A stretch of DNA of 64,000 nucleotides. Source: Halorarum halophilum. GTDB lineage: Archaea > Halobacteriota > Halobacteria > Halobacteriales > Haloferacaceae. A program made the translations under genes and the position numbers. The notes under the pieces are model-generated. The model saw only the letters and a program-made list of their open reading frames with translations, ran no database searches and had not been told where the DNA came from. This document shows, one piece after another, positions 5,812 to 7,371 of the stretch; positions within the stretch are counted from its first letter, which is position 1, and the number at the start of each line of letters is the position of its first letter. Location of the stretch: positions 1,116,001 to 1,180,000 of the forward strand of contig NZ_CP058529.1 of the NCBI RefSeq assembly GCF_013401515.1, given 5' to 3'.

Positions 5812-7371
5812 TCAATATAGTTTTGCAGCAAGAATATAGGCAATCACAAAAAGAATTGCCAAAAGCACGAGAACAACGAGAAGTCCAACAAATTCATTTG
5901 TATCTAAAAATTGAGCACCTGCTTGGGTTGCCGCCCCGAGAATAAGAAGAAAGGCCTCTTGTTGAGACGAAATAATACTAACAACCTCGCTCTCAGCTCG
6001 TTTTTTAGAGTTTCGCCTGACGATTAGCCGATTAAAACCGGATTCAAGTCGTCCGGTGAGTATACCCGTGATTACGTAGATCGCGGCTATTGCGTTGAAA
6101 TTGAACTCACCCAGATATAGAAAGCTCAGAATCCAAGGGAGAATCAAGAGGAATGCAAACGTTCCAAATCGTCGACTAGCTGTATTCAGATATCCCTCTT
6201 CCTTCTTGTCCCAGACACGCCGTTCTGAAATCGTCAAGTTTTCTCTCTTTGGTCTAGCAGTTATCTTCCAACCACACCTAGCGATCCCCTTGGTGTATGT
6301 TCGTACAAGCTTGTATCTATTATACGCCCCAACATATCCGATCAGAAAGAATATCGAAAAAAGTAGAGCAACAGTCCCATCGACTGGCTTCCGCACGGGG
6401 ATGCCGAGAACCCCAAATAGTGTAATACCGCTCGCATTTAACAAATCAATCGAAAGAGAAAATATGAGAATTTCGGAGATGAGGATGATAATTAGCAGAG
6501 TTCCTCTTGACATCGAATCTGCGAATGACCGGGCAAACTTCACTACTCCAGCATCCGAAATGAGAATAGCAATCACAAGACCCCAGAGAAACCCCGCAGC
6601 GTGCGAATAGACGTTCACGAACGTCCCGTCCGACACCACGTTCTCCGGCGCGGGAAACAGCGCCAGCACGACGAACGCGACCACGACCCCGACGAACAGC
6701 ACCGCGCCGACGGTCCACAGTTCCTCCCGCCCGACCGCCACGTCCCTCAGTCGGGTGTTGTACTCGTACAGCGTCGAGACGGCGACGAGGCCGATTCCGA
6801 GGAGGATCAGCCCCGCGACGAGCGGTCGGACGGTGCCAGCGTACCGGAGGTCGATCAACTGGAACAGAAGCAGGAAAATCGACAGGCCGGCGAGGTAGGC
6901 GACTTGGTGGCCGTGCCGCGACCGGACGAACAGGTACAGCGCGACGAGCAGCGTGCCGGCGAAGCCCGCGACCGCGCCGGAGAAGCCCCGCGACACCGCG
7001 CTCACATCGGGGTACTGGAGCGTGAAGATCACCCACTCGGTCGCGTTCACCAGCACGGGGACGAGCAGGGCCGTGGCGATGAACGCGCGCCAGAACCAGC
7101 GGCGGTGGTCCGCGGCGAGGGCGAGGCCGAGGGTGTAGAGCGCGGCGATGAGGAAGCCGACGACGTTGTTGAGGAGGTGGGCGTCCGAGGCGTGGAGGTA
7201 CGCGGCGGTGAGGAACGTGATGGGGTTCGGGGCGGCGTGCCGGAAGACGAACTGCTCCTGGACGCCCGCCGGCACGAGGAAGTGGATCGCGGCGAGGAGG
7301 GCGGCGACCCCGAAGATGCCGGCGAGGCCGCGGGCGACGGGGTCGGTCGATACGTCCTCCACGGCGGTCAT
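5812..7371 (-). CDS. Rhomboid-family membrane protease with long extra C-terminal membrane domain
   Basis: 519 residues. The N-terminal 260 are a rhomboid (S54) intramembrane serine protease: HLLNNV at residues 65-70, nucleophile Ser131 in RGFSGAVAG, and catalytic His257 in YSHAAGFLWG. The remaining 260 or so residues form several further membrane segments joined by a basic, lysine-rich loop (WKITARPKRENLTISERR) with no recognisable family. Base composition changes abruptly near 6600, at the catalytic His codon. DNA for the N-terminal part is typically GC-rich, while that for the tail is AT-rich with many lysine, isoleucine and asparagine codons. This looks like a rhomboid fused to sequence of foreign origin. 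The ATG at 7371 gives a normal rhomboid N-terminus. Confidence 0.8.
   Translation of the reverse strand: MTAVEDVSTDPVARGLAGIFGVAALLAAIHFLVPAGVQEQFVFRHAAPNPITFLTAAYLHASDAHLLNNVVGFLIAALYTLGLALAADHRRWFWRAFIATALLVPVLVNATEWVIFTLQYPDVSAVSRGFSGAVAGFAGTLLVALYLFVRSRHGHQVAYLAGLSIFLLLFQLIDLRYAGTVRPLVAGLILLGIGLVAVSTLYEYNTRLRDVAVGREELWTVGAVLFVGVVVAFVVLALFPAPENVVSDGTFVNVYSHAAGFLWGLVIAILISDAGVVKFARSFADSMSRGTLLIIILISEILIFSLSIDLLNASGITLFGVLGIPVRKPVDGTVALLFSIFFLIGYVGAYNRYKLVRTYTKGIARCGWKITARPKRENLTISERRVWDKKEEGYLNTASRRFGTFAFLLILPWILSFLYLGEFNFNAIAAIYVITGILTGRLESGFNRLIVRRNSKKRAESEVVSIISSQQEAFLLILGAATQAGAQFLDTNEFVGLLVVLVLLAILFVIAYILAAKLY

Follow-up and report, generated by a model that had tools for sequence, protein, structure and literature searches.

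Rhomboid proteases (PF01694, MEROPS S54) are recognised by the signature set HxxxxHxxxN, GxSG and HxxGxxxG. To our knowledge, very little has been learnt about what archaeal rhomboids cleave and what regulates them. Rho1 and Rho2 of Haloferax volcanii are the haloarchaeal rhomboids that have been studied (PMC11985538, PMC4343526). Haloarchaeal rhomboids with more than six transmembrane (TM) segments are known, e.g. RhoI with nine, and the accessory part that has been described for haloarchaeal rhomboids, a zinc finger of the AN1 type, is N-terminal (PMC4343526). The gene reported here, from Halorarum halophilum, encodes a protein of the haloarchaeal branch which has all three signature motifs in common with these proteases but carries its accessory part at the C-terminus, as a multi-TM module. 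Among the papers found, none describes a rhomboid with a comparable multi-TM module at the C-terminus.

Within the window, i.e. the whole 64,000 bp stretch of DNA that was analysed, the ORF call for the fused gene (5812 bp–7371 bp, minus strand) extended from an ATG at 7371 bp to a TGA at 5814 bp–5812 bp and comprised 519 codons with no internal stop. The 519 amino acid product, a rhomboid joined to a C-terminal multi-TM module, has approximately 12 hydrophobic segments in total. The rhomboid family set consisted of 92 members with their flanking regions, the fused protein included, and alignment with these relatives delimited the rhomboid part to residues 1–271 (6559 bp–7371 bp, minus strand), with the last core helix, which carries HxxGxxxG, as its final element. 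HLLNN (residues 65–69), GFSGA (129–133) and SHAAG (256–260) were found exactly where the preliminary description of this DNA had placed them. The codon of the catalytic nucleophile Ser131, in GFSG, lies at 6979 bp–6981 bp (minus strand) and the residue is invariant (91/91 homologues); that of the catalytic base His257, in HxxGxxxG, lies at 6601 bp–6603 bp (minus strand) and the residue is shared by 90/91, so that the residues of the Ser-His dyad, which the product had been proposed to keep, are both present and conserved in the family. The rhomboid helix 2 signature H60xxxxH65xxxN69 (7165 bp–7194 bp, minus strand) is found in 90/91, 90/91 and 89/91 homologues for its three residues, and in the last core helix, H257-A-A-G260-F-L-W-G264, the two glycines are conserved in 89/91 and 86/91 respectively. 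The fused protein carries H60, H65, N69, F93, P105, G129, F130, S131, G139, N253, H257, G260 and G264, all of them among the positions at which 85% or more of the 91 aligned homologues agree, and it lacks none of the family-conserved rhomboid residues.

The rhomboid part showed up to 50% identity to haloarchaeal rhomboids. Its match to the Pfam Rhomboid profile (PF01694; E 0.0026) scored 18.4 bits, below the gathering threshold of 22.6 bits, which is a detection criterion and not a biological one; the same profile recognised 5 of 11 family members (best E 7e-7), and a relative at locus L032 exceeded the threshold with 25.6 bits. In this family the spacing between the catalytic Ser and His has a median of 124 residues (113–142) and three hydrophobic segments lie between the corresponding helices, against one in GlpG, the parity of topology being preserved. 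One homologue (L041, on G034:C1) has lost its frame before the His and may be a pseudogene. No sequence match to the fused protein was found in the PDB, and a single-sequence AlphaFold2 model of it (mean pLDDT 47, pTM 0.27) was too poor for a fold search. Judged by its alignment, the fused protein is a complete haloarchaeal rhomboid with the catalytic and structural residues, and presumably an active protease.

Analysis of base composition in 150 bp windows revealed the G + C content to fall from approximately 0.70 (6600 bp–7371 bp) to approximately 0.43 (5770 bp–6600 bp), a sharp drop within one uninterrupted reading frame, as had been noticed from the sequence at the outset; a hand count of 25/60 G + C at 5941 bp–6000 bp was reproduced on recounting. 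The G + C at codon positions 1/2/3 was 0.71/0.42/0.95 for residues 1–256 and 0.52/0.40/0.41 for residues 257–519. By maximum likelihood the change point in G + C at the third codon position (GC3) fell after codon 254, with codons 252–260 within 2 lnL units, and the two-segment model was better than uniform composition by 102 lnL units. The GC-rich part therefore comprises codons 1–254 (6610 bp–7371 bp, minus strand; GC3 approximately 0.95), and the switch is within a few codons of His257, near the His codon as proposed. The AT-rich stretch (5765 bp–6609 bp, assigned to no strand; G + C approximately 0.43 by windowed composition and change-point analysis) begins directly after the stop of a GTP cyclohydrolase IIa gene at 5764 bp and ends inside the 3′-end of the rhomboid. 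The rhomboid homology extends to approximately residue 271, about 14 codons into this AT-rich DNA, so that the last stretch of the rhomboid, with G260 and G264, is AT-rich too. On this alignment the composition switch and the domain boundary are different points, about 14 codons apart, and the preliminary placing of the junction at the catalytic His holds for the composition break but not for the rhomboid homology. In the coding direction the AT-rich stretch contains a 262-codon open frame without stops; each of the other five frames contains 4–21 stops and a longest open stretch of 39–173 codons. The single long open frame, together with a reciprocal homologue (below), shows that the tail did not arise as a spurious reading frame. 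That the AT-rich stretch is a cassette, invertible or bounded by repeats, was considered and rejected, as no convincing inverted or direct repeats flank it.

The fused gene lies alone in the approximately 1.7 kb between the GTP cyclohydrolase IIa gene (4985 bp–5764 bp, plus strand) and a gene for a 76 amino acid CxxC-containing protein (7507 bp–7737 bp, plus strand). Comparison with a congener (G002) showed these two flanking genes to lie approximately 100 bp from each other, without an intervening rhomboid, their products being 87–88% identical at the protein level to those of H. halophilum. Insertion in H. halophilum and loss in the congener both fit the two genomes compared. The genes on either side of the fused gene are of housekeeping type, and it had no match in a defence library.

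The tail module (residues 272–519; 5815 bp–6558 bp, minus strand) contains at least four further membrane segments; Met287 (6511 bp–6513 bp, minus strand; from the codon list) is a candidate internal start if the tail is also made separately. Searches of Pfam, NCBIfam, PHROGs, PADLOC and PDB sequences gave no significant match to the tail, and a virus or plasmid origin was rejected because phage records, plasmid records and viral contigs likewise contained none. Scans of genome contigs with the whole fused protein and with a tail profile returned nothing, and a phylum-wide profile search returned a lone match of 41 positions in G705 (E 0.0015). When the tail alone was searched against the 170 genomes of the taxonomic family, one other protein was found, in a member of another genus (G161; E 8.7e-4), and the reverse search with this protein over the 392 genomes of the order retrieved only the fused gene of H. 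halophilum (E 2.6e-4). Pairwise BLASTP of the two gave E 2e-6, and their Smith-Waterman score of 101 was higher than the maximum of 95 from 1000 block-shuffles that preserve the local hydrophobic pattern (z 4.6). The G161 protein is a stand-alone membrane protein of 265 amino acids (L032, 1465 bp–2262 bp; G + C 0.40) that is collinear with the tail and has a similar TM plan, which places both in one module family, albeit with a weak identity of 22%. The tail had been described as encoding membrane segments of no known family, and this is borne out by the family libraries but has to be qualified by this stand-alone relative, the sole convincing match in any of the sets. The gene of the relative is separated by 37 bp from that of a rhomboid which belongs to the same family and is 39% identical to the fused protein, and the pair occupies an AT-rich islet of approximately 2.5 kb. 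Like the tail, the G161 protein is AT-rich in its coding DNA, multi-TM and adjoined to a rhomboid; unlike the tail, it is encoded by a separate gene that is convergent with the rhomboid gene. Because the G161 partner is convergent and not co-directional, the two arrangements can be related only through an inversion or if the joining took place independently.

The haloarchaeal relatives of the fused protein are mostly 260–300 amino acids long and end approximately 15–35 residues past the His, their last rhomboid helix ending 13–14 residues past it. None of the 91 other homologues (0/91) has the same tail or the same full-length protein, in agreement with the unusual architecture that had been proposed. 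Other long C-terminal additions were found in 3/91, at L155 (G182; 485 amino acids), L165 (G236; 534 amino acids) and L179 (G051; 543 amino acids). These rhomboids of the same family resemble the fused protein in having a long addition at the C-terminus, but the additions, for the most part soluble or with fewer TM segments, show no detectable homology to the tail.

A strong step in G + C near the end of the rhomboid (gain >18 lnL) was present at five loci, namely those of H. halophilum, G183, G161, G234 (L120) and G066. The best estimates of its position relative to the His were +12, +15, +11, +29 and -72 nt respectively, and the ranges at all five include the His or come within 6 nt of it (G066 range, -80 to +26). 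The four unfused rhomboids with a step have stop codons at +51 to +66 nt, and in G183, G161 and G234 the best estimate (+11 to +29 nt) precedes the rhomboid's own stop. Recombination at the conserved His motif had been suggested as the origin of the fused gene; a break does lie beside His257, but it is not peculiar to the fusion, as unfused relatives have it too. An AT-rich multi-TM gene adjoins the rhomboid on its 3′ side in G183, G161 and G066; in G183 and G066 this gene is convergent and overlaps the 3′-end of the rhomboid by 15 bp and 26 bp, and in G161 and G028 a convergent AT-rich membrane-protein gene lies within 37 bp and 2 bp of the rhomboid. The two features do not always coincide, since at L120 the 3′ neighbour is a non-membrane gene with a G + C content of 0.50 despite the step, and G028 (L044) has an adjoining AT-rich membrane gene yet no sharp break at the His. 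Homology among the partner genes was detected only between the tail and the G161 gene and within the near-identical G142/G030 pair. Identity between the G161 and G183 rhomboids is 65%, whereas their convergent partners are unrelated, and DNA identity between the two loci was approximately 0.70 until four codons past the His and 0.38 beyond. This fall fits an exchange point, but would also be expected from a weakly constrained C-terminus. When AT-rich genes for products of 120 amino acids or more were compared, those with two or more TM segments made up 15/31 of the genes adjoining rhomboids against 6/59 elsewhere in the same regions (Fisher p 1.2e-4), an enrichment that is indicative only, as the limits were set after seeing the data and some loci are related.

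Immediately upstream of seven rhomboids of the family, divergent in six cases and co-directional in one, lies a gene for a protein of 173–210 amino acids that has two TM segments at the C-terminus and, on weak HTH scores, a winged-helix-like N-terminus (L005, 2160 bp–2690 bp; L107, 6277 bp–6807 bp; L120, 6167 bp–6724 bp; L045, 8301 bp–8933 bp; L133; L135; L143). This protein is a candidate membrane-tethered DNA-binding protein that might be released by the rhomboid. At L107 (5880 bp–6065 bp) and L005 (1763 bp–1963 bp) the winged-helix gene and the rhomboid are separated by a gene for a two-TM protein of 61–66 amino acids, which directly precedes the rhomboid in the same orientation. Additionally, islet rhomboids were found in defence-gene neighbourhoods at L037, L043 and L106: that of G007 is near a CRISPR-Cas locus with Cas1 and a HEC-06-like gene, that of G003 near a type IIG restriction enzyme and an SNF2-type helicase, and that of G183 near a PDC-S39-like gene.

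In the simplest account, to which we give an even prospect, the fused gene encodes an intramembrane serine protease of the rhomboid type and, in cis with it, a membrane partner that is elsewhere encoded separately nearby. AT-rich partner genes would be exchanged at the 3′-end of a rhomboid gene that is conserved up to HxxGxxxG, and one such exchange in the H. halophilum lineage would have eliminated the stop codon of the rhomboid by bringing in a partner that continues its frame on the same strand. Since a fusion is found together with a stand-alone homologue beside a related rhomboid, a Rosetta-stone argument suggests that rhomboid and partner normally act together. Less certainly, the partner may pack against the last rhomboid helix and control substrate access to Ser131-His257, as an adaptor or gate; alternatively, it may be a tethered substrate. 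As the fusion is known from a single genome only, it is possible, if somewhat improbable, that it arose by accident, when an AT-rich islet gene behind a rhomboid became part of a read-through product on loss of the stop, with a tail that is irrelevant to the protease and will decay. The AT-rich DNA is still unadjusted to its host, the position at which the last helix ends in the relatives means that an added tail could be tolerated, and the other extended rhomboids bear unrelated tails; however, the sole convincing homologue of the tail adjoins a rhomboid of the same family, and its whole frame is open where the other frames are interrupted by stops.

That the tail is itself a rhomboid substrate, or a membrane effector held in check by the rhomboid, so that the fusion would cleave itself, seems quite unlikely: neither a cleavage site nor an effector family could be recognised, and the fused gene sits between housekeeping-type genes without a defence-library match, even though very diverse membrane proteins beside a conserved protease, the winged-helix-like neighbours with two TM segments at seven other loci (suited to release by cleavage, on weak HTH scores) and the defence genes around some islet rhomboids would suit it. 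It is very improbable that rhomboid and tail arrived already fused and AT-rich, only the 5′ part being later replaced by GC-rich homologous DNA. AT-rich rhomboids do occur in the family (G + C 0.36–0.50), and here the conserved G260 and G264 fall within the AT-rich part, but no AT-rich fused homologue was found and the unfused loci likewise show a GC-richer body with an AT-rich 3′-end.

The joining in cis of a protease and its otherwise separate partner can be extended, rather doubtfully, to the islet rhomboids as a whole, which might form a modular system with a conserved protease, a 3′ exchange site past the His and diverse AT-rich partners that set the target, usually encoded by separate genes and here fused. 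By analogy, such an organisation could be likened to systems with a conserved core and a variable tip. The fusion, together with a stand-alone homologue beside another rhomboid, provides a concrete and directly testable candidate partner, and the repeated composition breaks at rhomboid 3′-ends suggest a route by which an intramembrane protease may acquire new partners.
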